A stretch of 64,000 nucleotides of DNA from Zygnema cylindricum (Eukaryota; Streptophyta; Zygnematophyceae; Zygnematales; Zygnemataceae). Location: positions 190,428 to 254,427 of the forward strand of contig JBBHKE010001856.1 of NCBI GenBank assembly GCA_037447655.1, in the 5' to 3' direction. Under the pieces are notes generated by a model. That model was not told the DNA's origin, did not search any database, and saw only the letters and a list, made by a program, of their open reading frames with translations. Position numbers and translations under genes: made by a program. Positions 14,890 through 35,076 of this stretch are shown piece by piece (within the stretch, counting starts at the first letter, position 1; each line of letters starts with the position of its first letter).

Positions 14890-15059
14890 ATTACAACCGA
14901 TAACTTCCGCTAAGTTGTCCTCTTTTTAAGAGGCCACTCCCCCCTACTCGAGAAACCCTCGCTTGTGAAATGTGATTATTTCTTCTTTCTCTCCCCCCCT
15001 CAGGCTGGAAAGTTGCTTGCAATGGAAACAATTGAGGAGCTTGAAGGTAACTATCTCGA

Positions 15060-16110
15060 GATACTAAAGACTGGGGACTAAAAAATGTAAGAGCATGCTT
15101 CAAAACCCATGTGAATGCATTTAAGTTCACTATTTGTCTTATTAAGCTGCACCTCTCGAGGTCTAAAATACCTGGTGCAGTTGTGGTGTCTGGATGGAAT
15201 CCCATGGCATGTTGTTGTTCTGCAATTGTTGGTGTTGTCGAGATTCCCGCTTCACCATCGAATATATTCGAGCTGCTCATTTCCGATATGCATGGCTGTG
15301 CGGAAAAGAAACCAAGGTTCGAAGTGCTCGGTGTGGAAATCCTGGCTTGTTACACCAGAAGAAAGGGGACCGGTCAGTTTTTGTCACGGGCATCGCCATT
15401 TGCTTTTTTCCCAAGGATTTGCTGCATATAGATTTGGGGGTGCAGGATTTAACTTTCTAAAAGTTGCTTGAGGACGAGAAGCGAGATCAAATTTGTCCAA
15501 AAAGCTCTAACTCTGTGAGCCCGGGATCCCATCTGTGCTGCATCGAAGACTAATGGAGCTCCTAAGATATGGGTGACCTGGTTCCTGCTATCGGCAATAT
15601 GTTCTCGTCGATTATCTCTCGGGTGGACATTTTCCAAAACGTACCCCACTAGTTTGTTCCGGAGTTGTTGTAACCATGAGATTAACTGTATCATTTTGAA
15701 AAAATGTTATACTTTTGCTGTCCTTATGCCCTTTTCCTTGTCATCCTAGGGAGTATCCTTGACAGGGCCATCGCGCCACTACCAGATCTACCCTTCCCAG
15801 ACTAGCTAAATGATAGGTCAATATGTTACCCACATTCTGGGGAAGACTCCGGGGAGCTTTGGAAATTTCGGAGATGGGTAGCTTCGAGGATATAGTTGGT
15901 GAAGTTGTTGCAAGCGGTGTTTGCTGACTGCTCGGGCTTTGAGGGATATCTCCACACCTGCATAAGCTTCCACTTTGTATGCTGCTTTGAAAATTGCTTC
16001 CAAATCAGAATTTATTCCCGAAAATAGAGATAAAGTCCTAAGTCTTGAATTAGGAATCATCAATGACCCCGCTTGTCGGTTGAGCTTCTTACTTTTGGAC
16101 ATGATCTTCG
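15060..16110 (-). pseudogene. Cytosine-5 DNA methyltransferase domain, old copy
   Basis: Read on the minus strand, motifs occur in canonical C5-methyltransferase order. Motif I is LSLFSGINSDLEAIFKAAY (SAM-binding FxGI). An acidic AGVEI segment follows (motif II). Motif IV is VDLVVARWPCQGYS with the catalytic Cys codon at 15762-15764. Motif VI is YVLENV. The arginine motif VIII is GSRAHRVRAFWTNL. A target-recognition-like part has ALRTLVSF and SHAYRK, and the C-terminal part is AEQQHAMGFHPDTT. The AHRxRxFWxN block resembles the DNMT3 family. Stops occur after motif IV (TGA) and after SHAYRK, and motifs I and IV are in different frames. It is a pseudogene but clearly recognisable. Confidence 0.85.
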
Positions 16111-16129
16111 AAGATTCTAACCGAAGGTG

Positions 16130-16885
16130 TGAAACAGTTTTGTTGGGTAATATAGCTCAAAAAATTCCGATCCACTCCCCGCCAAAGTGTCGTCATTTGT
16201 AATAATCGGTCATGTTATTATTTTTCCCATCGCTTCGAAATAGGAAGTTGCTAAATCTCCTTTACTTTATCTGTGGAGCTAGCAAAAAATTTTGCTGGAT
16301 AGGAGGTCGCATATACAAGGTAAGAGTCGGACACAAGGGCATTTGTCTTCCCCCTATTCCATAAATCCAAGGGATACACCACCTATGTCTTTTCAGGGTC
16401 TTCGGGGGCCCGAACAGTAAACTGCTCTTTCCACACACTTAACTCCATAGTCAGCCTGGTCCACTGGCCATCCCCAGCAGAATTTCAAATTGCTTACCTT
16501 CCACCACCAAGAATGGGAGCTGAATTCGAACTCCCTAGCGGAATATCAAATTGCTTACCTTCACCACCAAGAATGGGAGCTGAATTCGAACTCGTTGGCC
16601 CGCATCTTCGGAAAATTCAATTTCTATTGCCTTGATGATTCCATGGACCGGCAAAGTTCCTCTGCTGACCATGCTTAGGCTAATGTTGCTCGGGAAGATT
16701 TTTGGCCTGATTACCTTAGGCATCTGCTATAATGTAGAAGTGGTGATTAGGTTTGTAAGCGCCTCAGTATTGACCACTACGTACTGATATCCTCCGTATA
16801 CGTTAAGCTTGAAGTTTCCAGTTCGGATCAGAATGAGAGCCACCAATAACGCTTTATAATCCCCATCCGTCATAGGGGTTTTTGG
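16130..16885 (-). pseudogene. Retropepsin region, old DNMT-gypsy copy
   Basis: Homologous to the protease at 27886-28419. The minus strand reads LITTST-type sequence, 'RPKIFPSNISLSMVSRGTLP' and GIIKAIEIEF, but the catalytic DTG is altered (Asn-Thr-Glu in place of Asp-Thr-Gly) by G-to-A type changes. A local tandem duplication of about 60 bp (16481-16600) repeats the QLPFLVV-coding segment. The gene is inactive. Confidence 0.75.
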
Positions 16886-18082
16886 TGTTGTCCATAGCCA
16901 TTTTCACGCATGGATTAACCCTCGGAAGCACCACATACTACCCCAAAAACAGCCTAATCTGAGTCCACTAAGATCCCTACAGAATAACCAAAACAGACTC
17001 AAACTTCAAAAATGATAGTTTCTAGGCCACTTAGTATTCCCTCAAAATATCATTTAAAAATACCGAACAAAATGATCCCATCACTCATTCAAAGTTGTAG
17101 AAAAACAGTTTGCCAGAACTTTGATAAATATGACCAACTTCACAATGAAGTCCCAAGCAAACCAGAAATACAATAGATCTGCAAATTTTTCAAAATATTA
17201 CCAATACAAATAGGAACACACACGGAAAATTTTAAATAATTCTGCCTATACAATTGAGAGCAATCCTCAGTTAAAAATTACCAAAAAGGAGCAAAAACAG
17301 TTTTTGTCCAAAAAGTTCCTAAATCCGAAAAATGACTAAGTCCTACAAATATACACTAGAGCTCACAAGTGACTGTACGGAGGCATGCCAGCCATACGTT
17401 ATATATCAACTACCTCTATTAATTTTAGTATACCTGAATAGTTCGTGATATGTTAGAATGAATAGATCTACACTAATAATCAATACACATAAGAAAAAAC
17501 ATTGTTGTAAATATTTACAAAACTTACGAATTACGTCAAACGAATCTAGGCCGTCCAAAGTAAATTTCATGTGATGGACGCGATTTCGCGTCTCTCACCA
17601 AAATGACCAAACTGACGGCGCCGCCGTCCGTAGCTCTTTTTCGTCATCCTTGATGTCATGTAGCGTGGTTACAAAAATCCACTTGACAAAATGACGTCAT
17701 CTCATCCAAATTAATCCGTACCGACGGCATCTTTTTTCCATAAATGCCGCTCACGCCACTTTCACTTTGAAATCCGTTCGTCATCGTTTTGATTTATACC
17801 TTCGGCGTACCTTTTCAAAACATTCCAAATCGGATCGCTTCGTGATCCGGCGTACATTTGACTTACACATTCCATTCTTTTTCTTCTGCTTATTCGCGAC
17901 ACTCAAATAGTTCCGTACGTCCAAAAAAAAGGTAGTACCGTTACTCCCTAATCCGCAAATCAATTCAAACCTCCACAGGAAATCCAAATAGCATACGCAC
18001 TAAAATTGTGTCAAGTACTTAAGAAACATTGTGTATGCACGAAACGTCGCGTACGCACGAAACTAACTTTTCAAAAACAACA
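16886..18082 (-). repeat. Solo LTR-D inserted in the old DNMT-gypsy copy
   Basis: A 1197-bp segment begins TGTTGTCC and ends AAAACAACA on the + strand (TG...CA with short inverted ends). It interrupts homology between the old and young DNMT-gypsy copies. TTTGG precedes it and TTTGT follows, a near-match 5-bp duplication. The same sequence begins at 63078 next to a tRNA-Met-like primer site, which sets its sense strand as minus. No internal region is attached. Confidence 0.85.
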
Positions 18083-18479
18083 TTTGTTTCTCCGAATAAA
18101 AAGACGGTTCTCGGCTGATTTCCCCAAGCTAATTTTTCTCTCCCCGAGTGTATTTCCTCTCTTAGTGACTGAATGAGGATTTCTTCGGGCAGATTGTGGG
18201 ACGAGGCTAAGGTTTTGACGTGCGTGAGTGCGTAGGGCATAAAGTGCCTTACTAACATGACAACGGGTTTAGAGGAAGGAGGTGGAGTTCTAGGCGATGA
18301 AATTGTGGAACTTGGTTCCTCCTATTTCTTTGGTTCCCCCCCTTTCTTCCTCATAGTTAGCGTCAGTATCTTCAACGTTCCCCCCTTTTCTTCCTCACTA
18401 TTAGCGTCAATATCTTCTACGGGAGCAGTTCAGGGAGTGTCGTGTTCTAGGCGTTCTTCCATGTAATTTTCAAACTAGT

Positions 18480-18545
18480 CTTGATTGCTCTCTCTCTCTC
18501 TCTCCAGGGATTCGTTCTCTCTCTCCAGGGATTCGTTCCCCCGCA
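18480..18545. repeat. CT-rich microsatellite and 21-bp tandem
   Basis: A TCTCTC run is followed by two or more copies of a CTCTCTCCAGGGATTCGTT unit. It lies inside the old DNMT-gypsy copy where the younger copy has no such repeat, so it is a local expansion. Confidence 0.7.
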
Positions 18546-18759
18546 GTTGCTTCTTTGCTTGATAATTCTTGCAACCAGGAGGCAATTTCTGTTTAGTTGG
18601 GAGAGATGGTAGGTGAGTTAGTTTGAGTCTGAGACTCATGTTACTGTTTAGGCTGATTGCCTTGGGGGTGAAGGATAGAGGTCCCATGACTTTCCGGTTA
18701 TGATATATCAGGTCCATTTGCTACTTGTCCTTCCTTTGCTCCGAGGTGGAAGCACGAAG

Positions 18760-20640
18760 TTATCGGCGGGTATCTCCCACCCCCACATTCCAAGCTTTGG
18801 ACAAAAAGGTGCGTGCATGGTGGGCTTTTGGGGGTTCGAAATCCCAACCCATTACGTCATCATCATCCTCACCCACTGTAGTTTGCTCTTCAAGCTCTGC
18901 AATATTTTGTAATAACTCGTGTTTTTGTTTTTGGAGTCTTTTTGTTGTAGTGAGAGGAGGAGCCCTTGATGGCGATCCTAAGCAGAGGGCAGCCAGTTTT
19001 GCTGCCATTGCAGCCAATTGTTGACTTTGCTATTGGATGATCCTTTTTGGTGTAAGCATTGGCAGAATGACCGATGTCTTTTACGATTCCTTTGGTGTAG
19101 ACAGGACACGACGACCCCAAAGGTATAGGAGTTGAAGTGGGAGAGGATTTACTGCAATTTCTCCTTGACAGGTGAAAAGGCAAATTGCATCATTTCTTTT
19201 AGGACTACGTTTTGGCGAAAACACAGTTCCTCCCGGTGTCCCATGAAACCACGAGGGGCACTTTTCGAGCCTTTGGTGGTGAATTTTCCCCTAAACTCAT
19301 TTGACACTTGTGCATCATCGAATTTGGGAAGCTTAATTTGCATCAGCTGAGATTGGGATATCTTTGCGGTTTAGGCCCGAGGAGTTGAGCGGTAAGTTTC
19401 TTTATTCACTGAGGTTCTTCCTCCTCCCCCCTCTCCTTGTTTTTGTTCCATCTGTTTTCGAGTCCTCTCAACATGTTTCTTCTCAAATTCCTTTTGTTTG
19501 ATGGCGAGTTCACGTTTGAGTTTCATTGGGCAGCGTTTCCACCCATGGCCGGTTTGTTAACAATTTAGGCAATTATACAAAAATACTTTGTCATCTGCCC
19601 CCATTGTAGGTTCTGACCCGTTATCACCTATTTTCCCTTAAGCTTATGCAAAGCTAAGAGTTGAGCCTGTTTCTCATCGTTCAAGGATGTCTCCTTGGTG
19701 AATGTTGCAAAGTTCTGCCCCCATTGCAAGTTATGACCCACTATCACGTGTTTCCCCTTGAGCTTCGGCAAAGCTTAGAGTTTAGCCTATCCGTCATCGT
19801 TCAAGGACGTCTCCCCACTGAATCCCGCAAAGTTTGCTCTGGCCTTGCCAGTGACTGTTTTTTCACTAGCCTCACTGTGGACAAAGTGATCATACAACTT
19901 CATAGCAACCATGGAAATGTCTTTGGCAAAGGGGTTGATATCGTAGATCGCTTAACTTGCAAAATAATTATCTGGGGCAGCTTGCCCTGGTTGTCTGAAG
20001 AATTGCGGATAGCAATTAAGTATTTAGTAGCCATGGCTGGAAGATTTTTTGTGGAGAGTTTGAGTATTTAGTAGCCATGGCTGGGAGATTTTTTGTGGAG
20101 AGTTTGATTTTCTGGCATAAATTGGAAAGGCGGTTGAAGAGAGTTTGTGGAGTTTTGTTCTTCAAGCATTTGAAGTCTTTCAACTCTTTGATAGCAGACT
20201 CGGTTCTCTCGGTGTGGAGAAGTCTCCATGCTTTGAGAAGAGTGGAGCAAGGTGTTAGATTGGCCACCATCCGTGTGTCTGCCTGGTCGGCCCGTGTCGC
20301 GTGCAACAGATTCACCATGGCGCGCCCTTGTCCTCGCAATTCATATCGTCCGTGAAGGTAGTAGTTACAGGGGCGGCCGCAGCTATAGCCAGATCAGCCT
20401 TGGCTTGCACCAGAACTGCATCTAAAACTGGATTTGTGACTTTGATGATGGGGGGCATCAAGGCGTGCTGCCTCTCTTGTAATCTGCCAAAGAGCCTCTA
20501 GAAAGGTAATTGACCATCATGGGAAAAAGGGTGGTATCGAAGTCATCCGGAATGACTCCTCCCCTGTACTTGTTGATTTTCGATTGAGTGAAGGATTTCC
20601 ACAACAGTTCGAAACCTGTAAATATTCGTTTATCCCCCAT
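18760..20640 (-). pseudogene. Gag of the old DNMT-gypsy copy
   Basis: Pieces match the gag of the younger copy: KRIFTGFELLWKSFTQSKINKYRGG (20640 downward), LFNRLSNLCQKIKLSTK (about 20100) and a zinc knuckle reading CLNC-stop-QTGHGWKRC at about 19540-19580. The knuckle keeps the His that is Gln in the younger copy. The coiled-coil-like LQKQKHELLQNIAELEEQ lies near 18930. Two local tandem duplications (120 bp at 19595-19834 and 44 bp at 20021-20108) and numerous stops break it. Confidence 0.78.
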
Positions 20641-21661
20641 CTCTTTCTCCTCCTCTGAAAGGTTGGTGAATTCAGGGGAGTGTGGCTGAGCTCGACTGAC
20701 GAACTAAACCGGGGAGATGATTCGTGAGTCTTCTTTTTTCGAAGCAAATACCGCCTACTTCTCCAATATGAGCAGCTTGGGAAGCGGTCAATCCCTCCCC
20801 CCACTGAAGAATTGTGTGTTGCCAAAAATATAGTTGGAGGGTATGTATCCACAACAGGTATTGTCTCGGTTCACATAGGTGCGGAGGGTTTTCGGGTCCA
20901 ACAACTTCTTCTGTCTGGTGGAATTAGCAAATTGGGTTGTTTGGAGGAGTACCCCAGGAAGAGGAAGACGAAGGAGAAGGCCAAAGTCCTTGCTTGGGAT
21001 ACTGGGTATGTCCTCTAGTAGTACGTCATGATAGAGATGTAGGAGGACGTTCAGAACTAGAAGATGGGAAACGACAGTGAGGTGGAGAATAGGCAAGGAT
21101 AGTGGTTCCAGGAGGGGTGGAGGTAATAGAGGGTCCAGCCACTAGCTCGGTGAGTGTTCCGGGAATTTTTTGGGGGACTATTATATGTCCCGCAGATTGA
21201 GAGAAAGGAATTGGATGAGGAGAAGAGGGAGGATCGGGATATTTTTTCGGCGTTGACGAAGGCGGAGTGGGCTCTCTCTAAAGAATGTGAAACCTTTCGT
21301 CCGGTCGCAATTCCAACAAAGCCTCCATGGCTGAGGAGATCTCCACCGATACAAAAATAGGAAGCTCTTGAGATACGATAGCAAATGCAAAAGGTTGATC
21401 TGCACCCAAACCCTTTCCATTAGTTTCTGCGATCCCCCCTATTTCTCGCTCAACAAGAAGTTATTGTCGATTTCTTGGTGGAGTCTTTTTTGGGCTGAGT
21501 TATGGGGGAAGCAACGGTTTCCCGAATTGGCTCTTCGAAATAAGGATTTATTATTGGCAAAGTGGAAACGTGCCTACTAAAAAGCCCTCCGGACCTAAGC
21601 CATGCGTATTGTATCAAACGTAATTCTCATTCCCATACTTTCTTCCTTTCCTCCACTAAAG

Positions 21662-21851
21662 CTATCGAGCGTGCCTGGTAACCGAGAGGTCCAAGTTATA
21701 TGTCCAAGGAGGTGTGCATGTGAAACCTGCAATCCACCCCCAAATGCTGATGCTCCCTTGGATCCGTGATAATGCCCATCTCTGTTCATTACCCCTTCCC
21801 AGAGATATGCATAGATAGTAAGGAGGAATGGAGTGGAAAAGAAAGGTGCCT
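21662..21851 (-). repeat. Repeat A, outer copy
   Basis: A module of about 190 bp beginning CTATCGAGCGTGCC on the + strand. It is about 90% identical by eye to 23048-23244. It lies outside the left B repeat and immediately inside the target-site border, so it forms the 3' terminus of the inserted element. Confidence 0.85.
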
Positions 21852-23047
21852 TGTACTACTCCGCTACTCCGCTGGAAGGCCACTAAATGCCACACTCCCA
21901 GCTACTCTCCAAAGAATAGGAAGGAAATGAGAGCCGTCCGATCCTTTCCGTAAAAACTCCAGACAAACCCAAAGATGACCACAAGAGTGTGCAAATAACT
22001 CCCACGCAGAAATATAGAAATAACAAATATCAGCTTTTCAGATTAAACAATATAACCTTGCCCCAGAGAATGGAATTAAAGATAGAAATGAATGATAATG
22101 GTGAAGCAAATTCACATACCCCGGAGTACAACGATGACCAAACTCAACAGAAGAAAACCTCTCCCAAAATGGTCCCGAAGAGCGGTATGAATCTCCCTCA
22201 CCCCTCCCGGTTCCACCGCAAGGATCCGACAAAACTCTTCTTAGTTTCAAACAGCGAAAGTCGAAACCGCCCAAAGAGGAGATAGTGCCAACTACCCACC
22301 CGTGCTATGGTCTCCACAAAAGACAATCCAAAACAAAGATGGCAATAGAGTCAACGACATAATGCAACCGTTCTCCAACAGAAAGATTGATTTAATTCTC
22401 TGGGGGTTTTCTCAGGAGACAGTACTGAAAAAGCAACCTGTCTCCTTCAGCCCCAAGTGCCTTATACAACCAAAGTTTGTCCTACTGCAAGTTCCAAAGT
22501 CAAAGCAATGTGACAAGCCAATCAGCGCCAGCAATTGTTATCGTACGGACATAAGACAAAACAGACTGTACTACACTCAGGGAAAAAAATTAGACGACTG
22601 GTCCCGGCTAGATTAGCGGCCGATGGTCCTTCTATCACACACAAAATGAAACAAAGTTCTGACTCGACGTGAAACCGCCTAACTTTGTCCCAACGTCATT
22701 AATGCTTTGCATGGTGGTTGGGCCTGAACTAACATCATACTGACAGCTAACAGTAAGATCTACGGGATAATCCCAATTGTTACCTGACGTTCTCTAAGGT
22801 ATCCCTATACTAGAGCTACATAGAACACACACTGTAATGGATCACACACTTTGCACCGGAATAACTCCTCAGTTCGACCTTCGTTTAAGGTGAACTAAAT
22901 TGCGTGGTGTTCCAGGATGAAAATAGAAATATATGATCCGGCTGATTGTCCTCTTCCTTCTCCATACGCTACAGTCCGTACAAAGTGGAATGAAGCCCCG
23001 AAACTCCTGGGAGTGCAAATGTGCCGAAGATGCACACGCGCTTGACA
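21852..23047 (-). repeat. Repeat B (LTR-like), 3' copy
   Basis: A segment of about 1196 bp, TGTACTACTCC...GCGCTTGACA on the + strand, matching 32947-34134 over its whole length. It has an extra 8-bp duplication (CTACTCCG) near its left end. Read in the sense direction it starts TGTCAAGCG and ends in TACA, like an LTR. The two B copies differ at a few percent of positions by eye. Confidence 0.9.
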
Positions 23048-23244
23048 GCTGTCGAGCGTGCCTGGTAATCGAAAGGTCCAAGTTATATGTGTAAGGAGGT
23101 GTGCATGAGTAACCTGCAATCCACCCCCAAATGCTGATGCTCCCTTGGATCCGTGATAATGCCCATCTCTGTTCATTACCCCCCCCCCCAGGGATATGCA
23201 CAGATAGTAAAGAGGAATGGAGTGGAAAAGAAAGGTGTCCTGTA
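23048..23244 (-). repeat. Repeat A, inner copy
   Basis: Beginning GCTGTCGAGCGTGCC, this copy separates the end of the coding region from the 3' B repeat. It includes a C10-type run near 23180. On the coding side it is bordered by two G-tracts on the minus strand (23245-23271), which look like a polypurine tract but are separated from B by this module. Confidence 0.85.
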
Positions 23245-23272
23245 CCCCCCCCTAGATTTCCCCCCCCCCCCT
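23245..23272 (-). other. Candidate polypurine tract
   Basis: The minus strand reads a G12 run, then AAATCTA, then a G8 run. In LTR elements a polypurine tract primes plus-strand DNA synthesis directly before the 3' LTR. Here repeat A intervenes before repeat B, so either A belongs to the terminal repeat or the tract is not the true primer. Assignment is tentative. Confidence 0.4.
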
Positions 23273-23296
23273 CTTAGTCCCACGTGACTAAGAGGA

Positions 23297-23470
23297 TTAG
23301 ATAGATAAGCCGCCAAACTCGCAGTCCCCACAGAACCACGGATTTGCGGGTTGAGAGCGGGGCTCCCAATTCAAAGGTAGGAAGCAGTCATGCCACCCCT
23401 GGTGACAACGTTCACACACCAACAAGAGGTAGGGTACGGAGGACACATGGTAGGTAGAGGCACAAGTTGG
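23297..23470 (-). pseudogene. PHD-like cysteine/histidine cluster after the integrase
   Basis: The last 60 residues of the 309-residue frame 23297-24226 read YLLLVCERCHQGWHDCF, then NPWFCGDCEF. This matches the second half of a PHD finger (LLLCDxC...WHxxC...WxCPxC), with one residue fewer between the Trp-His and Cys. The first zinc-ligand pair is not complete: only one Cys (PPTCAST) is seen before it. PHD fingers bind histone H3 tails, so a chromatin-targeting role is conceivable but inferred. The frame stops normally after GGLSI. Confidence 0.6.
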
Positions 23471-24700
23471 AGGGTCTGCAAAATAAGTGAGGTGGAAAGT
23501 GGGTTCATCCTCTAACCCTCGCAGATGGCAAGGGGCCACATTGATCTTATTCTTTTTAATTTTGCGGCCATCCTTCCCTTCCAAGGTAAGAACCCCTTTG
23601 TTTGAGACCTCCACAACTTTCAGAATCACCCGTCCGGCCGAAATGTCCAAAGTATCCTTCTTCTGTTGCATGCGATACACAAAATCCCCGGGCACAAATC
23701 GACGTTGCCGGGGGACATAATTGCCACTCCGTCGTTGGGAATACCAGAGTTGATCTTTGTGCTGAGCAGCTTGTAAATTGCCCATGGCCAGAGGTATTTC
23801 CCGCTGAATTACCTTAGCCCGGTCGGCAACCAGTCTCTCTACAGTACCTCGGTTGTCCATCTCCGGAAGAACAACCGCCTGAGCCGACGCAGCCTTTGGT
23901 AGGATGGGATGTCGGCCGAAGAGAATGAAGTAAGGGCTATAGGAGTGGAGAGATGCCTGCCTGCTGAACCTGTACCCCATGGCAATCGAAGGCACTCGTG
24001 TGTCCCACTCCCCCAAATCCTCTTCAACTGTATATTTCCGTAGTGATTGCTTCACTGTCTGTACGCACCTCTCGGCCAAGCCGTCGGCTTCGGGGTGGTC
24101 TCGGCTGGTTAACCTATGGTCAATGAGGCACTTCTCCAGAAGGTTAGAAAATTCTCGAGCAAACTCAGACCCCTGATCCGTCAGAACTTCGGCCGGTGCT
24201 CCAAATTGAGACAACACTCTCTGCAAGAATGCGTCCGGGATTGCTTAGGACTCCTTTCGGGGAAGAACCACCAATTCAATCAACTTAGAGAAGTGTTCAA
24301 TCATGACCAACACAAAACGGTTCCCCCTCCGGCTAGTACGAAGTGGTCCTAGCAGATCCAGTGACCATCTGTAAAACATCCCCCGAATGGGGAGGGAGTG
24401 AAGCTCAGTCCCACCCTTTTTGTCAAAAGCTGCTTTTACCCGGTCACAGGAAGGGCACGTCTGCACCACACGATTGACTTGGGCGCGCAACCCATGCCAC
24501 CAATACGACCCCGTGACTAGCGAGGTGGTTCGTTTTTGTCCGAAGTGCCCGCATTGCTGGTGAAGCCGAACAATGAGCGTTTCGCGATTTGCCGGAGGGG
24601 GGACCACTTTCCTCGTCCCATCGGCCCATTTTCGGAGAAGGATGCCTTGGTCCCATTCATAAGCCGCCATTCGGTTCTGAACACGGGACAATTTACTTCC
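23471..24700 (-). pseudogene. Integrase of the young DNMT-gypsy
   Basis: The zinc-binding N-terminus has HQQCGHFGQKRT and CPSCDRVK (frame 24245-24691). The catalytic core shows WSLDLLGPL (first Asp), VLTDQGSEF (second Asp) and HPEADGLAERCVQT (Glu), the D,D-35-E arrangement of retroviral-type integrases. One in-frame stop (after LPRKES, about 24243) separates the two halves. The C-terminal segment KGVLTLEGKDGRKIKKNKINV with a following PCHL resembles the GPY/F-like end of metaviral integrases. The catalytic residues are all present, so only the stop inactivates this copy. Confidence 0.9.
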
Positions 24701-24889
24701 GGCAAGGTGGGATAGAGGAGAGCCCTTCTGGATAGATTGGAGGGAATCGCTCTCATTTCATATATCCTTCCGGCCGGCTCCAATGAGGCCTCCCCCTCTA
24801 CATCTGTAGCAAAAGTTGATAGTCCTCTTTCGGCCTGAGGTAGCCAAATAAAAGCATAGGAAGATCGAATAAGTCCCAAGCTAAGCTCA

Positions 24890-25281
24890 GGGTTTTCGTC
24901 ATGTCGCGCCCTAGTAGAGTCTCTAGTGGAAGGGTCCGGATTCCTGCTGAGTCCGTCGGCATTCCCATGAATCTCCCCGGCTCTATGGATGATGGTGAAA
25001 TCATATTCCTGCAAGATGAGAACCCATCTGGCTAGCTTTCCTGTCAACTTATTGTTCTACATGATCCACTTGAGGGGCTGGTGATCCGTAATAAGGGTGA
25101 AGTGTACTCCATAGAGGTAAGGCCGGAAGTGCTGGATGGCCCAAACCGCGGCGAGTAATTCCCCATGGTAACTGCTGTAATTCCCCTCGGCTCTGTTATT
25201 ACTCCGGCTTGCGTAGGCCACTACATACTCAGCCCCTGCATCGTCCAATTGAGCCAAAACTGCTCCTAATCCAAACCTGCT
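24890..25281 (-). pseudogene. RNase H of the young DNMT-gypsy
   Basis: Frame 25057-25257 has YVVAYASRSNNRAEGNYSSY and HGELLAAVWAIQHFRPYLYG, then LITDHQPLKWIM. After a stop the domain finishes with LARWVLILQEYDFTIIHRAG and NADGLSRNPD in 24517-25047. These are standard gypsy RNase H blocks, including the catalytic Glu (HGELLA) and Asp (TDHQ). Confidence 0.9.
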
Positions 25282-26230
25282 CTAATCTGTATAAAGGAGA
25301 AAAGGCCGCTGGTGATCGGGCATCCGGAGCACACGATGTTGTTTGAGGGAATCCTTCAGGAATTGGAACGCTATCTGCTGTTCTACCTTCCGCTGCCACT
25401 CCTGGTCCTTTCGCAACAATTGGTTCAATGGCTGAGCGTGGCTACTGAATTGAGGAATAAACCGCAGGTAATAGTTGGCAAGGCCTAAGAAAGTACGAAG
25501 AGCAGAAATGTCCTGCGGGGGTGGAAGAGCATCTCGGGCTGCCACCTTAACCATGTGGGGACCCACTGTCCCGGGAGTCACCTCATGACCCAGATAAATA
25601 ATTTTCTGAACCCCAAAGATGCCTTTCCCCAGGTGACACTTCAAGCCCGCTGCTTGGAGTGCCCGGAGAACGATCTGTATGTGCTCCAAGTGTTCTTCGA
25701 ATGTCTTGGAGAAAATGATAACATTGTCGATATAACACCGAGCGAAATGAATTCCCCGGAGAGCCTCGTCCATGGCCGGTAGGAATTTGGCCGGTGCATT
25801 CTTGAGGCCAAATGGCATGTACAGCCATTCATATAGACTGGATCCGGCCCAAAAAGTAGTCCTCTCTCGCTGTCTCGGCTCCATTGCAATCTGGTGGAAT
25901 CCATTTTTCATATCCAAAGTGGAGTAAATGGTGTCCCTAGCAAGAGAGTCGAAGATCTCTTCCGGGGTAGGCATAGGATAACGGTCGGAGACAGTTGCCG
26001 CGTTGAGCATCCGATAGTCCCCACACATCCGGAAATCTACAGTTTTCCCGAAGGAGTCTTTCTTAGGCGCGAGCACGATTGGTGAGGCAAACCCATGTAG
26101 TCTTGTACTCTCCTAAACCAGCCCAGCTTCCACCAAAGTCTGCACCTTTGAAATGATGAACTCCTTCTCCTTGAAACTGAGAGGGTACTGTTTCTGCCAA
26201 ACAGTAGCCGTCTCGTCGATCAAGTCAATT
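25282..26230 (-). pseudogene. Reverse transcriptase of the young DNMT-gypsy
   Basis: The minus strand reads ASPIVLAPKKD, FRMCGDYRMLNAATVSDRYP, STLDMKNGFHQIAM, YMPFGLKNAPAKF, then the catalytic box CYIDNVIIFSKTFEEH and IIYLGHEV. These are gypsy RT motifs 1-7. The catalytic YxDD is YIDN here: the second Asp codon has become Asn, a G-to-A change on the coding strand. A stop lies just upstream near 26100 in the VEAGLV-ESTRLHG region. This copy is therefore RT-defective. Confidence 0.92.
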
Positions 26231-26690
26231 TAAAGGAGTCCCTTTATAGATCCCTACATCGGTGTCAGACCAGGCGAACACCTGCCCGTTATTTTCTAAC
26301 AGCTTGGAGAGCCGGGCCTTCTACTGTGGGTCTAGCTGTTCACCTAGAGTCCAGTTCATCTTCCCGGGTTCCACTGCCGCCAATGCTTCCGGTGGTCTAC
26401 CCAAGAGGGAGATGTCGAAGGTCAGCTCTTCCTGTGGGTCGGTCCCTTGTTCGGCTGTTTAAACGCTGTTGCTGACAACTTCCTCTAAGCTATCATGTTC
26501 TGGGACTCCGCCCCCCCCCACTAAGGAAACTCCTGGGTCCAGTGTGGCATTGCTTCCCCCCACTGAGGAAGTTCCTAGGAATTTGGTGAATGTGAATTTT
26601 TCCCTCCTTGTTTCCCTCCTTGTTGTCTCTCTCCCCCCCTCGAGCTTTAGAGTTGCTTGCATGGCCAACAACTGTGGAGCTTGAAGGTAT
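26231..26690 (-). pseudogene. Linker between methyltransferase and RT
   Basis: The minus strand encodes LQAPQLLAMQATLKLEGGRE and then low-complexity Gly/Ser/Arg sequence (frame 26459-26746). The first part is conserved in the old copy (LQAPQLFPLQATFQPEGG, 14891-15280). No known domain is recognised. Conservation of the block in both copies suggests it was translated. Confidence 0.6.
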
Positions 26691-27720
26691 GTTGTCCGTG
26701 ATTTTAGAGACTGAATGCTTGAGAATGCAAGAAAATGTTTCAGCACCTAGGAAATTGAATTTAAATCCATGCTTTGTCCGATTAAATTGCACCTTTTTGA
26801 GGCTGATACCCCTGGCGCAGCTGTGGTTCCCTGTTGAAACCCCATTGCTAGTTCCCGTTCTGTAATATTCGGCGCTGTCCACGTGGCGGTTGTACTGTCA
26901 AAGATCATTCCTAGTGCGCCCTTCCGGTAAGCGTGGCTATTAGAAAAAGATACCAGAGTTCGGAGGGCTCTCCGTGGGGACCCATGCTTATTACAACAGA
27001 AGAAGGGTTCTTTGTCGCTTTGCTCACCGGTGTGGCCATTCGCCCCGGTCCGAGGATCTGTTGGACTGTGATGTTGGGATCTGTAGCTTGTGTTCTCAAC
27101 AGCTGTTGGAGGATTGGAAGAGGAACCTAGTTGGTCGAATATGCCCGAACTCTGTGGGCTCTTGATCCGATCTGAGCTGCATCAAAAATTATGGGAGTCC
27201 CTAGAACTTTGGTCACTTGGTTCCAGTTGTTGACCACCTGTTTTCTTTTATCATGTGTGGGGTGAATGTTTTCCAAGACGTAACCCACTGGTGTGTCCTG
27301 GCGTTCATGTAACCCTATTATTAGTCTGATCATCTGAAAGAAAGTTCTGCTACGAAGGTCCTGGTGTCCTCGGCCCTGTCGTGCTAACGAATACCTTTGG
27401 CATGGCCATCCAGCGACCACAAGGTCTACCCTTCCGAGCTTTTCCAGATGAGACTCCGTGATATTATCCACATTCTCGGGAAGCGTGCAATGAGAGTAAG
27501 ACATGGGGGACAGCGGTAGTTGCTGTGGGTAAAGTTGGTGCAGTAGTTGCAGACGGTACTCACTGACTACATGGGCGTCCGGGTCTATCTCGACTGCCGA
27601 GTAAGTTTCTTTTTGGTATCCAGCTTTCAGGACGGCTTCCACATCGGAACTAATGCCAAAAAATAAGGATAGAATCCTAAGTCCTGAAAGCGGGATTTAT
27701 AGTGACACCACTTGTCGATT
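26690..27720 (-). pseudogene. Cytosine-5 DNA methyltransferase domain, young copy
   Basis: C5-methyltransferases transfer a methyl group from SAM to cytosine in DNA. Minus-strand motifs in order: I, LSLFFGISSDVEAVLKAG (about 27680); II, YSAVEIDPDA; IV, VDLVVAGWPCQRYSLARQG with the catalytic Cys codon at 27410-27412; VI, GYVLENI; VIII, GSRAHRVRAYSTN; then VQQILGPGRMATPVSKAT, ALRTLVSFSNSHAYRKG, and ITERELAMGF with LIGQSMDLN (IX/X-like). The motif order is not permuted, and AHRxRxY and the GPGRMA block resemble DNMT3 rather than DNMT1. The domain is about 330 residues, near the family's catalytic size. Breaks: TAA before motif I, TAG near 27131, a frameshift between the GRMA and ALRT blocks, and TAG at 26747-26749. 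It sits between protease and RT in the same direction, with no sign of a separate promoter. Confidence 0.9.
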
Positions 27721-27885
27721 GAAGTCTTTCCCTTTGTTAGGAACCGTTGGAAGTTCCGACCGGGGGACTTTTGCTGCTCCGGGTGATATTGCAGCCAAGC
27801 TCCTGTCCACTTCCCGCCGAAGTGTGGCCATCTGTACCAATCGGTTCTGATACTCCCTTTTCCACCGCTTGGAAATAGGGAATTG

Positions 27886-28440
27886 CTAGATAGAATCAGC
27901 GATATCGTTAGAGTATTTGAACACCTCCGAGGGGGTTGAGGCAGAGTAGACGGGATAGCATCCAAACACCGGAACAGTCGTTTTTCCCCGGTTCCACAAA
28001 TCCAAGGGGACCACCACTTTTGTTCCTTTCTGATCCTCAGTGTCTGAGACTGTAACTTGTTCCTTCCATACGCTCAACTCCATGTTCAACCTTGTCCACG
28101 TCGCCATACCCAGCAAAATTTCAAATTGCTTACCTTCCACCACTAGGAAGGGAAGCCGAACCTGCACGTGCTGGCCTGCATTGTCCGCAAATTTGATTTC
28201 CATGGCTTTTATGATCCCATATACTGATTGGCTACCACTACTGACTGTGCTCAAGCATATGTCACTTGGACTGATTTTTGGCCGGAGTTCCTCGGGCATT
28301 TGTTGTAACGCTGATGTCGTTATTAAGTTTGGAAGAGCTCCGGTATCCACCACTGCATCCTGGTACCCGCCGTATCCATTAAGTTTAAAATTTCCCGTCC
28401 TGTTGAGGATAAGAGCCACCGAAAGGGCCTTATAATCCCT
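27886..28440 (-). pseudogene. Aspartic protease of the young DNMT-gypsy
   Basis: The 177-residue open frame contains YQDAVVDTGALPNLITTSAL, the retropepsin active site (D-T-G-A), and FEILLGMATWTRLNMEL, matching the hydrophobic-Gly flap/C-terminal segment of retropepsins. It would cleave the polyprotein. No stop lies in this part, so it is the best preserved domain of the copy. It lies directly upstream of the methyltransferase (frame 27627-27965 overlaps its end in another phase). Confidence 0.82.
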
Positions 28441-29240
28441 ATCTGCCCATAAAGGTTTTTGATTCTGCCGACATGAAGACTGTCTTGGGCGGTTCTGCCA
28501 ACGCGACCCTTTTCCTCCTAGTGTGAATTTCTTCCCCTAATGCCTGTATGAGGGTTTCTTTGGGCATATTGTGGGAGGAAGCCAGCGTTTTGACATGCGT
28601 CAAGGCGTAGGGCATTAAGTGTCGTACTAGCATGACTGCCGGTTTGGAGAAAGGAGGGAGAGCTTTGGGCGATGAAATGGGTGAGTCCTCGTCTTCCGAT
28701 TTCTCCTAGTCCCCCCATCTTCTTCCTTACTTTCTGCGTCAGATTTCCCCGTAGGAGGTGTAATTGGCGGATCTGTGGACGGTCTCTCTACCATGTATCT
28801 GTCAAACCATTCCTGATCTGTTTCAGTGGTTGAAGTATTTTCTTTCGGTTGTGTCTTCTTGTAATCTTCAAAACCGGGAGGAAGTTTCTTCGGAGCCGGA
28901 GGGGGCGGGTTAGTCGGCTTGAGTCCAGTCCAACGTCACTGTTTAGAAGTACTGCTCGCGGGGTCAAGGATAAGGGGCCGGTGGCTTTGCGACTGTGGTC
29001 CCTTTGTTCCATCGGTTGTTTGTCTTTTCTTTGGAAGGACGTTGTAGAGCGCAGTTGCCTGCGACTGTCCCCTACACCAACGTTCCATGCTCCGGACAGA
29101 AATGTCCTAGCATGCTGAGCCTTTGGAGGCTCCATATCCCAACCCATCGGGTCATCATCATCTCCACCCAACGTGGTTTGCTGCTCCAGCTCCGCTAGCT
29201 TTTGTAGCAGTTCTTGTTTTTGTTTCTGCAGTTTCTAAGC
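28441..29240 (-). pseudogene. Gag-protease spacer with conserved acidic block
   Basis: Three conserved blocks recur in both copies of the family: a Gln/Leu-rich coiled-coil-like stretch with QKQKQELLQKLAELEQQ (about 29170-29220), GGDDDDPMGWDMEPPKAQHA (29171 downward) and YALTHVKTLASSHN (28439-28633). I recognise none as a known domain. Their retention in the diverged old copy indicates past selection at protein level. Confidence 0.62.
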
Positions 29241-31764
29241 CGGCGTAAGAGGTTGAGGAGTGCGGGCAGAGGATCTCAGTCGGAGAGCGGCCAGTTCTGT
29301 TGCCAAAGCGGCCAACTGAGTGCTCTGTTGCTGAATGATATGTTCCGGTGTCAGTCTGCTGGGCCCCGGTTCATTTGGAGATCGTCCCCACGGATACAAA
29401 AGTTGCAGTGGCAGAGGATTAACGGCAGTTTCCCCTTCGCCTGTAAACAATGCATACTGCATCATCTCCTTCGGAACCCATATTTCCGAAAGCATTGCCC
29501 TTCTTTGTGGCACATGAACCCACAAGCTTCACATTTTGACCCTTCAGTAGTATACTTCCCCCTTAGCTCATTAGAGATTTGAGCGTCATTGAATTTTGGA
29601 AGTCGGATTTGCCCCAATTGGGATTGAGACATTTTGGCGGTTTCAGAGCGTGGAGTAGGTTTATAGGTTTCCTTAGTGACCGGGGTTCGGTCTCCTCCTC
29701 CGCCTCCTTGCTTGCGTTCTTGCTGTTTCCTTGTTCTTTCCGCACGCTCCCTTTCAAACTCCTTTTGCTTGATGGCGAGTTCTGGTTTGAGCTTTCGGGG
29801 GCACCTCTTCCATCCTTGACCTGTCTGGTTACAGTTTAGGCAGTTGTAAAGAAAAACTTTTTCATCTCCCCCCATTGCAGGTTCTGATCGGGCATCCGCT
29901 TCCTGTTTCCCCTTAAGCTTCCGCAAAGCTTGCAGTTCTGTCTGCTCGTCGTGGCTGAGCGATGTTTCCCAGGCGAAACCTGCAAAGTTGGCTCTGGATT
30001 TTCCGGTAACAACCTTTTCTCGTGCCTCGCTATTAACAAAATGATCATACAATTTCATAGCACCCAATGAAAATTCTTGAGCTGTGGGATTCCGATCGTG
30101 TATAGCCTGATTAGCGCTCCAATTGTCCAGAGCTGCCTGTCCTGTTGGCCCGAAGGAATTTCGAATAGCGACATAATATTTGGTGGCCATAGCCGGTGTA
30201 TCGATGGTGGACAGTTTGGTCTTCTGGCAGAGGCTGGAGAGACGGTTGAACAACGTCTAGGGAGTTTCATTCTTCAAACTGCGGAAGTCTGTGAACTCCT
30301 TGATGGCAGTTTCGTTCCTTTCTGTGTAAAGGAGTCTCCAAGCGTCCAGAAGAGTGGTACAAGGATTAGGATTGGCAACCATCCGGGTGGCTGCTTCGGC
30401 TGCTTGTACCGCAGGTGGTTGACATAGGCCCTACCTTGGGCCTAAAGTTTCATATCCATGGTGAAAGTGGCGGTGAGAGGAGCTCCGGCTGCGGCAGCCA
30501 AGTCGGCTGCTGCCTGAAGAGCCTCGACGTCCAAAACCGGATCTGATATTTTGATACAGGGAGCCATCAACAAAGGTTGACGCTCCTTATAATCGGCCAA
30601 AGCTCCTCCAGCTAGATAATTTACCATCATCGGGAACAAGGTTGTTTCAAAATCTGCTGGAATGGCCCCTCCCCTGTATTTGTTAATTTCGGACTGCTTC
30701 AAGGATTTCCACAGCAGTTCAAAATCAGAGAAGGCAACTCCCGAGTTGTCCCCGGTGAAGATCCGAATGTCTCCCATTTCTTTTTCCTCCTTTGCAAGGT
30801 TGGTGAACTGTGAAGAGGATGGTCCGGTTGGGCTAACAAACTGGACCGGTGAAATTACTCCTGGATCAGCGTTGTGTAGCTCCGGCTCGCCTCCTTCTTT
30901 GGTAGAGGGAGCGATCTGACGAGAGATGGCACTCCCCCCCAATGAGGAAGTTCTGGTTACGGGTGGGATAGTGAGATGACCAGTATCTCCCTGGAGTTGG
31001 CCCTTGGGAAACGAGGAGCTTATCACCTTGGGAAAAGCTGCCCGAAGTCCTGCTCCTCTATACCCAAGAGAGGCCCGTTCCTCCCGGTGAAGTGTTTCCA
31101 CCGAGGGAATGTGGAGAATGGGTTTAGTCACCGGTGGTCGTTGAGGGATTGGTGGGGAAGGGGATGGATATGACTGAGGCCTACGAGGGAAAGGTGTTAG
31201 TCTCCGTGTACGCCTTGTGGAGGTTTCTGGTGGAGGAGTTCCTCTGCTAGAACCGGGAGAACGTCGGTGGGGAGGAGAGTAAGCAGGAACGTCGTACTTG
31301 TAAGGTAAGACGGGTGGTCCCGATGACCCACAGACTGCAACGGCCTGAGAAACAGAAGGGGAAGAAGAACATGCCTGAGGTGGCGATGGAGGAGGAGTAG
31401 TAAGCCAGAGGGAAATGTGTAGTCTCTGGTCTGGTTGTAGCTGCACCACGGTCTCCACAGTAGAAGATCCCTCGACCGAGACAAGTGTAGGGAGATCTGT
31501 AGCCGCACCCACCGGATTACTCGGCAAATCTGCACCCAACCCATTTTTGTTAGGCCCTGTTGTTTCCTCCCGTTCCCGATGAAGAGGAGATTCTGGTCTC
31601 GCTTCTGGTGAAGTCCGGGGATCTCGCATGGGAGGAGGAGTTGTCTGATCCAGAAGTTGTTGTTCTATCGTGGGACCTGTTCTACGAGGAGGTACTACCT
31701 GTCCACTAAAGATTCCCCCAGATCTTTGTCTAGCCTCCTGTATCAGGATTAGCTCCTGTTCCAA
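29241..31764 (-). pseudogene. Gag of the young DNMT-gypsy
   Basis: The 440-residue frame 30442-31764 starts with a Pro/Ser/Arg-rich N-terminus and ends with a capsid-like part (FSDFELLWKSLKQSEINKYR, FPMMVNYLAGGALADY). Frame 29462-30253 continues with FNRLSSLCQKTKLS, FVNSEAREKVVTGKSRANF and two zinc knuckles. The first is CLNCNQTGQGWKRC, where the expected His is Gln (the old copy has His). The second is CEACGFMCHKEGQC, an intact CX2CX4HX4C. A frameshift or stop near 30257-30440 separates the halves. The product would form the virus-like particle. Confidence 0.8.
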
Positions 31765-32850
31765 TGCTCACTTCCTTTCCTCTTCAAGGGCATCCCAATC
31801 AATTGCAACGGGTCCGGCCCCCGCCGTAGCCTTATCTTGCGATCGCAGAATCTCAACCAATTTCTGGGTGCTGCTCACCACACCCGAGAGATCCGCAATC
31901 CCCAAACCGGGTACCTCAGGGTCCGTAGGCCTTGAACGCCATAGTCCTTCGGATGGTCGAACAACTGGTGCTGAAGGAGACATGGAACTTGGGCAAATTG
32001 AGGCAGAAGGAAAGAACAACTCTTCTTTGACTAGGGGAGCAAATCGACCTTTGCTATCCCTATGGTTGAATCGGAAATCTCTCTTACGCTCAGGTACCTT
32101 CCGCTTGCTACTCCCTTCCCTGATCTGGCCCCGAGAAGTTGCTCTGCCCCTAGAAGGTCTACTGGTAGCAGTTTCCTAAGATATGGTGGGCTGTTGTCGT
32201 GAAGTAGACGGCATCTCTGGTTGCTCTCGGGCAGAGGTGGGAGAGCCACTCTCGGACGAGCTACTCATGATCTCCACTACTCCTCCCACTGGGCGTATGA
32301 TCCGGGCTTTGTCGCGTCTGGCAACCCGCTGCACTAGCTCCTTCTTAACCTTCAGCTCATGAATATTGTGAAGGGCTAGAATCTCCTTACGACCAGATCG
32401 GTTAGGATCTCACAAGAGTTTAGGATCCAGGTATGTCTCCACTATTGGAGCCTTGGATCTGGTATAACGTACCACCTCAGGAGGGTGGCCTGGGACCGCT
32501 TCCTTGTATGCCAAACCCTTTATACGAGATCGGGGAGATAAAGGTTGTCTTTCTACCTTCCCCGTGGCCTAGCCCTGGCGGCCTAGGACAACGTCGGAAA
32601 GTTTTCAGGGGAAAAGACTGGAGGAGGTGGAGGTGAGGGTTGCCTCTCTGTCGGCCTCGGGGGAGTCTCGACGACAACCGGAATGGGCATCATCCCGTTA
32701 AGAAACTGTTTAATGTTCAAAGTAGAGGTGAAAGGGACCGATTCCTTAAGCACCTGGGACTCTCTCTCTTGTGCCACCCCTTCTTGTCTTTCCTGTTCTT
32801 CCGGACTAACACCGGAAGGATCCTTATCCGGAGCTTCTCCTCCGCCCATG
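31765..32850 (-). pseudogene. N-terminal extension of gag, young DNMT-gypsy
   Basis: A start at 32849 (MGGGEAPDKDPSGVS) leads to a proline-rich stretch and FSPENFPTLS. Sequence then continues across a few stops with LALHNIHELKVKKELVQR, RPVGGVVEIMSSSSES, and frame 31768-32019 (VEILRSQDKATAGAG). The same blocks appear in the old copy at 34140-34408 and 47700-48560. Function is unknown; the composition is mostly disordered. The region makes the gag of this family unusually long. Confidence 0.65.
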
Positions 32851-32946
32851 ACTTACACAAACAGATGAGCTGGATCTCTCAGATAAAATACACCACCCTA
32901 AGCGGTTATCCTCTTAAACAAAAGGGGACAATGGCTTTTTCAGTAC

Positions 32947-34134
32947 TGTGCTACTCCGCTAGAAGGCCACTAAATGCCACACTCCCAGCTACTCTCCAAA
33001 GAATAAGAAGGAAATGAGAGCCGTCCAATCCTTTCCGTAAAAACTCCAGACAAACCCAAAGATGACCACAAGAGTGTGCAAATAACTCCCACGCAGAAAT
33101 ATAGAAATAACAAATATCACCTTTTCAGATTAAACAATATCACCTTGCCCCAGAGAATGGAATTAAAGATAGAAATGAATGATAATGGTGAAGCGAATTC
33201 ACATACCCCGGAGTACAACGATGACCAAACTCAGCAGAAGAAAACCTCTCCTAAAATGGTCCCGAAGAGCAGTATGAATCTCCCTCACCCCTCCCGGTTC
33301 CACCGCAAGGATGCGACAAAACTCTTCTTAGTTTCAAACAGGGAAAGTCAAAACCGCCCAAAGAGGAGATAGTGCCAACTACCCACCTGTGCTACGGTCT
33401 CCACAAAAGACAATCCAAAAGAAAGATGGCAATAGAGTCAACGACACAATGCAACCGTTCTCCAACAGAATGATTGATTTAATTCTATGGGGGTTTTCTC
33501 AGGAGACAGTATTGAAAAAGCAACCTATCTTCTTCGGCCCCAAATGCCTTATACAACCAGAGTTTGTCCTACTACAAGTTCCAAAGTCAAAGCAATGTGA
33601 CAAGCCAATCAGCGACCAGCATTGTTATCGTACGGACATAAGACAAAACAGACTGTACTACACTCAAGGCTAAAAATTAGACGACTTGTCCCGGCTGGAT
33701 TAGCGGCCGAGGGTCCTTTTATCACACACAAAATAAAACAAAGTTCTGACTCGACGTGAAACCGCCTAACTATGTCCCAACGTCATTAATGCTTTGCCCG
33801 GTGGTCGGGCCTGAACTAACATCATACTGACAGCTAACAGTAAGATCTACGGGATAATCCCAATTGTTACCTGTCATTCTCTAAGGTATCCCTCTACTAG
33901 AGCTACATAGAACACACACTGTAATGGATCACACACTTTGCACCGGACTAACTCCTCAGTTCGACCTTCGTTTAAGGTGAACTAAATTGCGTGGTGTTCC
34001 AGGATGAAAATAGAAAGATATGATCTGGATGATTGTCCTCTTCCTTCTCCATACGCTAGAGTCCGTACAAAGTGGAATGAAGCCCCGGAACTCCTGGGAG
34101 TGCAAATGTGCCGAAGATGCACACGCGCTTGACA
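32947..34134 (-). repeat. Repeat B (LTR-like), 5' copy
   Basis: 1188 bp, beginning TGTGCTACTCC and ending GCGCTTGACA on the + strand. It is the partner of 21852-23047. In the sense direction it is followed by a leader reading GTACTGAAAAAGCC, and the same leader follows the old copy's repeat remnant at 48784. Unlike the 3' copy it has no repeat A beside it. Confidence 0.9.
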
Positions 34135-34408
34135 AAGTCTCCGAATCTATGGTGGCAGGTCCGGCCTCGTCGTAGCCCCACTTTGAGATTTTAGCTTGTT
34201 AACCAATTCTTAAGCACTGCTCAATACCCCTGTTAGATCTCCCTTATCTACACATGGTACTTATGGATTTGTAGACTAAAGCCTCTAGAGCCTTCCAGAA
34301 GGGCTAATTGACGGGGCTCTAGGAGAGGGTTTCTCTATGTATATAACCGAAACCTTTGGATTTGTTAATTTTGATCGCCAGATCCCTCCGGAAGGGTAAG
34401 TTGGAGGT
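34134..34408 (-). mobile_element. Old DNMT-gypsy copy, segment 3
   Basis: On the + strand the sequence from 34138 aligns with 31790-31960 of the young copy (shared GGTCCGGCC, TTTTAGCTTGTTAACCAATT-like and CCTGTTAGATCTCC positions). It resumes the old copy exactly where segment 2 stops at 21661. The chromovirus inserts at 34409, after AGGT. Confidence 0.8.
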
Positions 34409-34918
34409 TGTAACAGGGTTACAAAGTCTGGTACTTAGTAGTTAGCAACTAGGCTGCTATGGTTGCGATATTAGAGCAGCGCAACTGCGATTCCACACCA
34501 TCGCAACAAAGCAGTATTGCAGCTTAGCAGCATAGCTACTTAGTGGCATAGCAGCACAAAAGAGCAACGCAGCTTAGGAGTATAGCAACGCCGCGGAATG
34601 TAGATAAAACGGTATTGTTCTAGACGATATTTTGGGGAATTGTCTTGGTTGACCATGAAGGTCCACGTGTACAGTTATACAGTACTAGGTTGACTAGCTG
34701 CCAGCTAGTTAAAATAGTGAGGTAGGCCTAGTGGATAGGAGACTCTTTTAGTAGACCTTCGCAGCGAGCGCTGAAAATTGTAATCCTCTTTTGAGTAATA
34801 AAGCGCAACCTTCACTGTTAACTGCTGTGTGCGCCTACTTTTGATACAGGAAGATTCTTGGAGCTTTCCGCTGTGCATCGTGGTGGATTGTGGTGCTTAT
34901 ATTTCTTGTCCTTTTACA
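34409..34918 (+). repeat. Chromovirus 5' LTR (LTR-C)
   Basis: Begins TGTAACAGGGTTACA and ends TTTTACA. Positions 34465-34600 contain many degenerate CAGC/TAGCA-type 10-11 bp repeats. Homologous copies lie at 47195-47699 and 56470-56954. Confidence 0.9.
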
Positions 34919-34919
34919 C

Positions 34920-34931
34920 TGGTTTCGGAGC
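34920..34931 (+). other. Primer-binding site of the chromovirus
   Basis: TGGTTTCGGAGC starts one base after the LTR. It resembles TGGTATCAGAGC, the site complementary to initiator-Met tRNA, with two differences. Confidence 0.6.
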
Positions 34932-35076
34932 TTTTCCTCGTGACTCGACAGCATTGGCGCTCACGACGTGTCCACTACGGAAATCTTAGCGCAAGTTCTA
35001 AAGGAGTTAGAAACGTTAGATTATAGAACGCGCAGCTGAGCAACACCGTCGCAACTTTGGAATCTCCTCTTTTTGA

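Follow-up and report, generated by a model that had tools for sequence, protein, structure and literature searches.

Methyltransferase and split repeats in a Ty3/gypsy-type element

The stretch of DNA analyzed here, 64,000 nucleotides of Zygnema cylindricum contig JBBHKE010001856.1 (hereafter the window), contains at 21663-34134, on the minus strand, an element that we identify with high confidence as a retrotransposon of the Ty3/gypsy type, with a DNMT3-like cytosine methyltransferase (MT) encoded in its pol. A first-pass annotation had described such an element at 21662..34134; Pfam domains, readable motifs and other genomic copies bear out that identity, the bounds have been slightly refined, and a repeat order that it overlooked, A-coding-B-A-B, has been recognized. 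Taken whole, the explanation that we favor, and consider somewhat probable, is a split-repeat gypsy element that would prime its own reverse transcription, integrate through a circle joint, methylate its own DNA and be targeted by a PHD finger.

The predicted domains show the order Gag, protease, DNMT3-like MT, reverse transcriptase (RT), RNase H and integrase, the last with or without a PHD finger, between split repeats A and B-A-B, and all are encoded on the minus strand. The gag region spans approximately 28451..32852, and its open reading frames (ORFs) at 29462-30256 and 30442-31767 are kept in two other copies, C1374 and C544, at 83-93% amino acid identity. It is followed by the aspartyl protease at 27886..28450 (Pfam E value 6.9e-5 in 27886-28536, just below the cut-off) and by the cytosine-5 MT at 26735..27696, where motifs I-X are distributed over two frames with stops and a frameshift, and where the C5-methyltransferase family PF00145 is matched at 27127-27696 (E 1.2e-10). 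RT and RNase H occupy approximately 24917..26180 (RVT_1, 1e-24, in 25282-26112, beyond which the frame continues). The integrase at 23297..24757 consists of an H2C2 zinc-binding domain (Integrase_H2C2, 24245-24757, E 3.3e-16) and an rve core (23297-24244, E 6e-5, below the family cut-off), with a PHD-like tail at ~23300-23470. The window copy is broken: the N- and C-terminal parts of the MT lie in different frames with in-frame stops, and the frame common to the protease, the MT core and RT is also interrupted by stops. The earlier view, drawn in part from the order protease, MT and RT, that the MT lies inside the element is supported. Long open frames were found in other copies by profile search of the Zygnema genome assembly (352.8 Mb, 2689 contigs).

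Self-comparison of the window revealed two repeat pairs, A (21857-23047 and 32944-34134; 1191 bp, 95.8% identical) and B (21660-21856 and 23047-23245; ~199 bp, 92% identical). Read in the orientation of the element, A1 (32944..34134) forms the 5′ end, beginning TGTCA, and the coding region is followed by B1 (23050..23245), A2 (21857..23047) and B2 (21663..21856), which forms the 3′ end and finishes in GATA, the corresponding letters being GACA in most copies. Because a second repeat pair stands beside A, these are not simple long terminal repeats (LTRs). The element is flanked by AAGC (21659..21662) and AAGT (34135..34138), a target-site duplication in which three of four bases agree; the pair of bases adjoining the element on the left flank is GC in element orientation and could alternatively be a retained GC. 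The order A-coding-B-A-B recurs in C1344, C829, C1915, C2602, C449 and C1374, and the genome has 44 matches to the B-A-B unit of the window; some span the whole unit, some consist of A alone and four of A-B.

Distribution, class and possible role of the methyltransferase

Profile PF00145 gave 123 scored matches in the genome out of 782 loose candidates, and some of these matches may be host genes. Ten copies were picked from them for long frames, a sample chosen by its MT and so unable to test MT absence; all ten have RT and then integrase downstream of the MT, and the protease query was matched in two, both close relatives of the window copy. C1374 and C544 constitute subfamily 1 with the window (83-100% amino acid identity to it by matched piece) and the other eight subfamily 2 (35-55%). 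The first-pass annotation had allowed that other copies might lack the MT, which would then be a later insertion in the window. Instead, at eight places chosen by their RT, none with a listed MT, MT sequence was found upstream in every case, and the MT is thus no local accident. It is of whole length at six of these places, two of them with a frame change, and represented by its C-terminal part only at C961, where a run of N lies upstream and is read as X inside a 5743-aa frame, and at C370, where the preceding DNA is stop-rich and AT-rich. Among the matches listed, 35 of 137 RT matches are preceded on their own strand by an MT, at a distance of 1.0-1.27 kb in 34 cases and of 2.6 kb in the remaining one; a single RT/MT pair within 6 kb is arranged otherwise. 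The window itself contains, at 14980..20614 on the minus strand, an older, interrupted relative whose separate segments show 65-75% identity at the DNA level and which has MT fragments at ~15101-16057.

Outside the genome, the MT piece of the window matched four proteins, and a profile of those matched 51, which we read as 46 members of one family and five general C5-MTs. The metagenomic protein P0145 carries the MT and then RVT_1 in a single ORF. In P0156, the C-terminal part of the MT directly precedes H2C2 and rve with no RT between, and the integrase matches at 44% over 236 residues; to judge from this domain order, the MT of P0156, a relative whose integrase is similar, occupies a second position. 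No family member was found in viral contigs, where the profile search gave five weak C5-MT matches (29-48% identity). The best-scoring RT match that bears an organism name comes from Closterium sp. NIES-68 (54% over 53%), and matches of the Zygnema genome to that protein reach 59%.

Motifs I, IV (GWPCQ), VI (ENI), VIII (SRAHRVR) and IX/X (ERELAMGF...LIGQSMDLN) are all readable in the window translation, as the first-pass annotation stated, and they follow the DNMT3-class order from I to X without a DRM-type rearrangement. Assignment to the DNMT3 class is a ranking by profile and fold: the best profile and structure match was to DNMT3A and DNMT3B (PDB), which are alike in motif order and fold, and DNMT3 was the nearest fold for the relative P0118 in a structure comparison that ranked only the families listed there. 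DNMT3A has PCN at motif IV in the alignment, whereas the element MT has PCQ or ECQ and is embedded in Pol. When motif IV was scanned at 36 host loci and the window, 19 were readable: all ten of subfamily 1, including the window, have GWPCQ, and all nine of subfamily 2 (L010, L015, L016, L022, L024, L026, L031, L033 and L059) have G(W/S)ECQG, in which Glu replaces Pro. The motif IV Cys, the motif VI Glu and the motif VIII Arg are retained in both subfamilies. Of the 19 metagenomic relatives whose sequence extends over motif VI, 17 read EHV there, and P0150 and P0151 read ENV. Comparison of open frames gave MT dN/dS values of 0.11-0.41 for the 18 pairs whose dS was finite and no lower than 0.09, C1374 entering through two overlapping loci. 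Between the more distant subfamily 2 members, dS has reached saturation and MT dN is 0.11-0.22; RT is more constrained, with dN of 0.04-0.07 in the same group. On these substitution estimates the MT is under purifying selection.

Translated within Pol, the MT would methylate the element's own DNA, CG being our guess at the context, such that new copies would arrive already methylated; we place this proposal a little short of evenly balanced. Over the stretch from MT to integrase, the observed/expected ratio of CpG is 0.61-0.66 in three subfamily 1 copies and 0.85-0.94 in eight subfamily 2 copies, with GpC at 0.80-0.83 and 0.92-0.98, respectively. This contrast fits self-methylation by the Pro form alone but is not decisive. 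Several observations weigh against self-methylation. The CpG contrast is one between two lineages, with no matching rise in TpG and CpA, and a Copia element in the window that has no MT is equally CpG-depleted (0.62); for these reasons CpG depletion was dropped as proof. Moreover, Glu in place of the motif IV Pro may abolish methylation in subfamily 2, yet the MT there is conserved. The differences between A1 and A2 of the window comprise 28 transitions (12 CG, 9 CHG and 7 CHH) and 20 transversions (Kimura two-parameter distance 0.042), and the CG share is 7 of 18 in C2602, 2 of 12 in C1374, 0 of 3 in C829 and 3 of 6 in C1915. The window transitions suggest methylated cytosines and do not indicate the enzyme.

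An alternative that we regard as unlikely is that the MT persists for a DNA-binding or structural role within Pol and not for methylation. This would suit the nine of nine subfamily 2 loci in which ECQ stands for PCQ while dN is still low, and no activity was seen in yeast for the MT of the Klebsormidium nitens element, a result that its authors call inconclusive in the main text of their report (PMC5890265). However, the retention of the catalytic-motif Cys, Glu and Arg in both subfamilies and of PCQ throughout the readable loci of the window's own subfamily weighs against this reading, as does the activity in yeast that the same text describes for the MTs of the Symbiodinium DIRS-Dnmt3 elements (PMC5890265).

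A PHD finger was sought in the window, C1344 and C1374. In C1344, which belongs to the subfamily with Glu in motif IV, a single open frame runs from the MT through RT, RNase H, H2C2 and rve to a PHD finger at the end of the integrase (PF00628, 3.5e-10); in the window's subfamily the match is weak, at 3.7e-3 in C1374 and 0.48 in the window. The finger might steer integration to a histone mark, a suggestion for which we see the chances as even.

Priming of reverse transcription and a possible integration route

Copies with readable ends start with TGTCA and finish with GACA, older ones showing single changes. Ends were read by regular expression and then by alignment, the alignment counts being used where the two differed. 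Among 15 insertions, the flanking 4 bp were duplicated exactly in seven, at three of four positions in four, at two in three and at one in one. Thus 11 of 15 reach at least three of four, against a chance expectation of 0.76, and the expectation for exact duplications is 0.06. The exact duplications, left and right being identical in element orientation, are TTGG (C1344), AAGG (C829), CCCT (C1915), CCCC (C2602), TGGA (C2015), ACTC (C2458) and AAGG (the solo copy in C1527); those at three of four are the window, C449, C519 and the solo copy in C706, those at two are C2183, C1836 and C1120, and C1374 has one. The count leaves aside C783 (no A2-B2; flanks agreeing at one of four), C2577 (no A2-B2; unscored), C544 (no B-A-B) and C1407 (left end outside the stretch), and right ends were read without a left partner in C539, C1769, C1701, C1508, C953, C2595 and C1407. 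The TG...CA ends and the 4-bp duplications point to a DDE integrase.

How such an element primes its reverse transcription is suggested by two features. A G-run tract at 23246..23271 on the minus strand, immediately before B1, has a counterpart in all seven copies with mapped repeats and is the likely plus-strand primer (polypurine tract). At the end of A1, a putative self-primer binding zone (32934..32949, minus strand) is complementary to a site inside A1 (33506..33521, minus strand) that would be the 5′ end of the RNA. In six of the seven copies the last bases of A1 and those just downstream form an exact self-complementary run of 15-21 nt with a site inside A (C1344, 18; C829, 21; C1915, 21; C2602, 16; C449, 15; C1374, 15). 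The seven copies fall into four sequence groups, and primer zones set against the A of another group give runs of 6-9, cross matches within the group of the window and C1374 being 10 and 6; each group pairs with its own A, a pattern of covariation. Sites were located by ungapped scoring and an exact-run search, the latter supplying those of C449 and C1374. In 2100 random windows, 2081 had exact runs of 5-12, one had 14 and 18 had 21-23, the 18 presumably overlapping A on the other strand. No TGG-type tRNA-primer site was seen by eye directly after A1 in the seven copies, and ARAGORN detected no tRNA in the sequence scanned, host tRNAs not having been compared with the A1 edge.

In Tf1/sushi-type elements, the primer-binding site matches no tRNA and is instead complementary, over ~11 nt, to a stretch within the 5′ repeat. 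The element described here resembles them in this respect and differs in the length of its complement (15-21 nt), its split repeats and its MT. By analogy with Tf1, the RNA would start at the site inside A1, its own 5′ end would prime the minus strand, and the G run would prime the plus strand. The decayed window copy counts against this, with nine exact pairs, or 15 of 16 positions paired if a single mismatch is allowed; nevertheless, we judge self-priming to be quite probable.

The point at which B1 and A2 meet, 23044..23053 in the window, is the palindrome GACAGCTGTC, read as GACA-GC-TGTC with its central GC at 23048-23049. This joint is exact in 14 of 20 B-A-B units and has one change in the other six, and past one mismatched position subfamily 1 extends the dyad by CT..AG and subfamily 2 by CA..TG. 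After the outer right end, the GC is absent in 20 of 22 ends read. Its presence inside and loss outside would fit cleavage of a closed circle by integrase at the joint. At L033 (C2577, near 35891), the last B ends in GACA-GC and other DNA follows, without A2-B2.

A route that would produce this anatomy can be outlined. Plus-strand synthesis from the G run would yield a linear cDNA with the order B-A-coding-B-A, whose ends would join at A|B to close a circle. The DDE integrase would then open a single palindromic B-GC-A joint by cutting 3′ of each CA, leaving 2-nt 5′ GC overhangs much as in retroviral 3′ processing, and insertion with a 4-bp stagger would give A-coding-B-A-B, in which the GC survives at the internal joint and is missing at the outer ends. 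The retroviral circle joint is generally regarded as a dead end. In vitro, as described in the text of PMC1180852, foamy-virus integrase cuts the palindromic joint of 2-LTR circles after CA, with 2-nt 5′ overhangs, which is the cut predicted here; HIV-1 integrase, according to the text of PMC1905944, cleaves its own circle joint. In foamy virus, the joint forms where blunt LTR ends meet in a circle (PMC1180852), whereas integrated copies of the element already contain a B-A joint, whose part in integration we infer.

Weighing against integration through a circle joint are the four of 15 insertions without a clear duplication and the three places where an outer GC occurs: after the right end in the window and C449 (2 of 22), where either the duplication has one mismatch or the GC was kept, and before the left TGTC in C1836 (1 of 15), where it was possibly kept. 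The route is, moreover, deduced from anatomy, namely the structure of the ends. On balance we give it about the same chance of being right as wrong. The fuller proposition is more tentative and, in our estimate, falls somewhat below that: a lineage obliged to pass through a closed circle, self-primed, with ligated ends and a built-in B-GC-A joint that its DDE integrase would cut, its cDNA methylated by its own DNMT3-like enzyme.

The competing explanation, that integration is linear as usual and that A-coding-B-A-B arose by recombination between tandem or neighboring copies, appears improbable. Recombination between the repeats does occur: two of the four A-B matches were read as solo copies (L052 in C1527 and L053 in C706) with 4-bp duplications at four and three of four positions, the expected product of A1-A2 recombination, and C1374, which lacks a clear duplication, has additional B-A-B pieces. 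However, C1344, C829 and C1915 occupy separate sites, with A repeats 99.5-100% and B repeats 99.5-99.6% identical and with exact outer 4-bp duplications, and recombinants would not be expected to have a duplication at their outer ends every time. Furthermore, none of the seven copies with mapped repeats has the ends B-A-coding-B-A.

Relation to known retrotransposons

The element is of a known kind. KnitGypsy-Dnmt3 of Klebsormidium nitens, described by de Mendoza et al. in 2018, has a DNMT3 in a Gypsy Pol and DIRS-like repeats, and by its main-text description, the basis of our comparison in place of sequence, it shares with the Zygnema element the Gypsy domains, an unrearranged DNMT3-class MT in the Pol ORF, the A-coding-B-A-B order and purifying selection on the MT (PMC5890265). 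All of these features, together with a DDE integrase, were found here, and the element quite possibly belongs to the KnitGypsy-Dnmt3 lineage. The main text of PMC5890265 makes no mention of a target site, circular form, chromodomain, PHD, primer binding, palindrome or self-priming, and names target-site duplication once, for another element. The text of a 2025 survey places some DNMT3s in “LTR Copia and DIRS” retrotransposons, citing de Mendoza et al. (PMC12344493). In the open-licence literature, read as text without figures or supplements, we found no account of the duplications, joint, self-primer or PHD for the DNMT3-Gypsy group. New here, as predicted from sequence, are the 4-bp duplications, the GACA-GC-TGTC joint, the self-primer, the PHD finger and the Glu variant of motif IV, an anatomy that suggests an unusual integration route.

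It is very improbable that the element is instead of the DIRS type, with a tyrosine recombinase. The repeat order is in its favor, since A-coding-B-A-B split repeats are called typical of DIRS elements in the main text of PMC5890265, and SymbioDIRS-Dnmt3 of Symbiodinium shares both split repeats and a DNMT3 in Pol but has a tyrosine recombinase in place of a DDE integrase (PMC5890265). Here, H2C2 and rve mark a DDE integrase, and tyrosine recombinase PF00589 was not found at E<=0.05 in the C1344 (1439 aa) and C1374 (1358 aa) frames, upstream frames not having been scanned. The 4-bp duplications also disfavor this identity; DIRS elements are not known to have target-site duplications. Finally, a host MT gene with an element landed beside it, for which only the broken reading frame in the window speaks, has virtually no chance, being refuted by the MT in the same place at all eight RT-chosen sites and in the older window relative, and by the one-ORF fusion of MT and RT in the metagenomic P0145.

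Other mobile elements surround the locus. The older MT-element relative contains an insertion at 16886-17636 that is 83% identical to 63078-63831. A further Gypsy element at 34409-47700 has terminal repeats at 34430-34918 and 47214-47699 (86%) and, judged by eye, a chromodomain-like end near 45500; it is interrupted by a Copia element whose LTRs lie at 36992-38021 and 42373-43401 (96.9%). Additional Copia pieces lie at 11134-14889, which is 81% identical to 39655-43400, and at 1560-6598, where 1560-2143 and 6015-6598 are LTR-like (93%).

With more than 100 scored MT matches and, among the copies inspected, at least two long-separated subfamilies, the Zygnema genome offers a natural experiment on a parasite that carries a host-type silencing enzyme, and the contrast between Pro and Glu in the catalytic loop of the two subfamilies is part of that experiment. 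If the circle-joint route is correct, the circle joint would be a normal integrase substrate in this lineage, which would account for the presence of DIRS-like repeats together with a DDE integrase. The structure of the ends makes the old question of whether integrase uses the circle joint answerable by a simple oligonucleotide assay.

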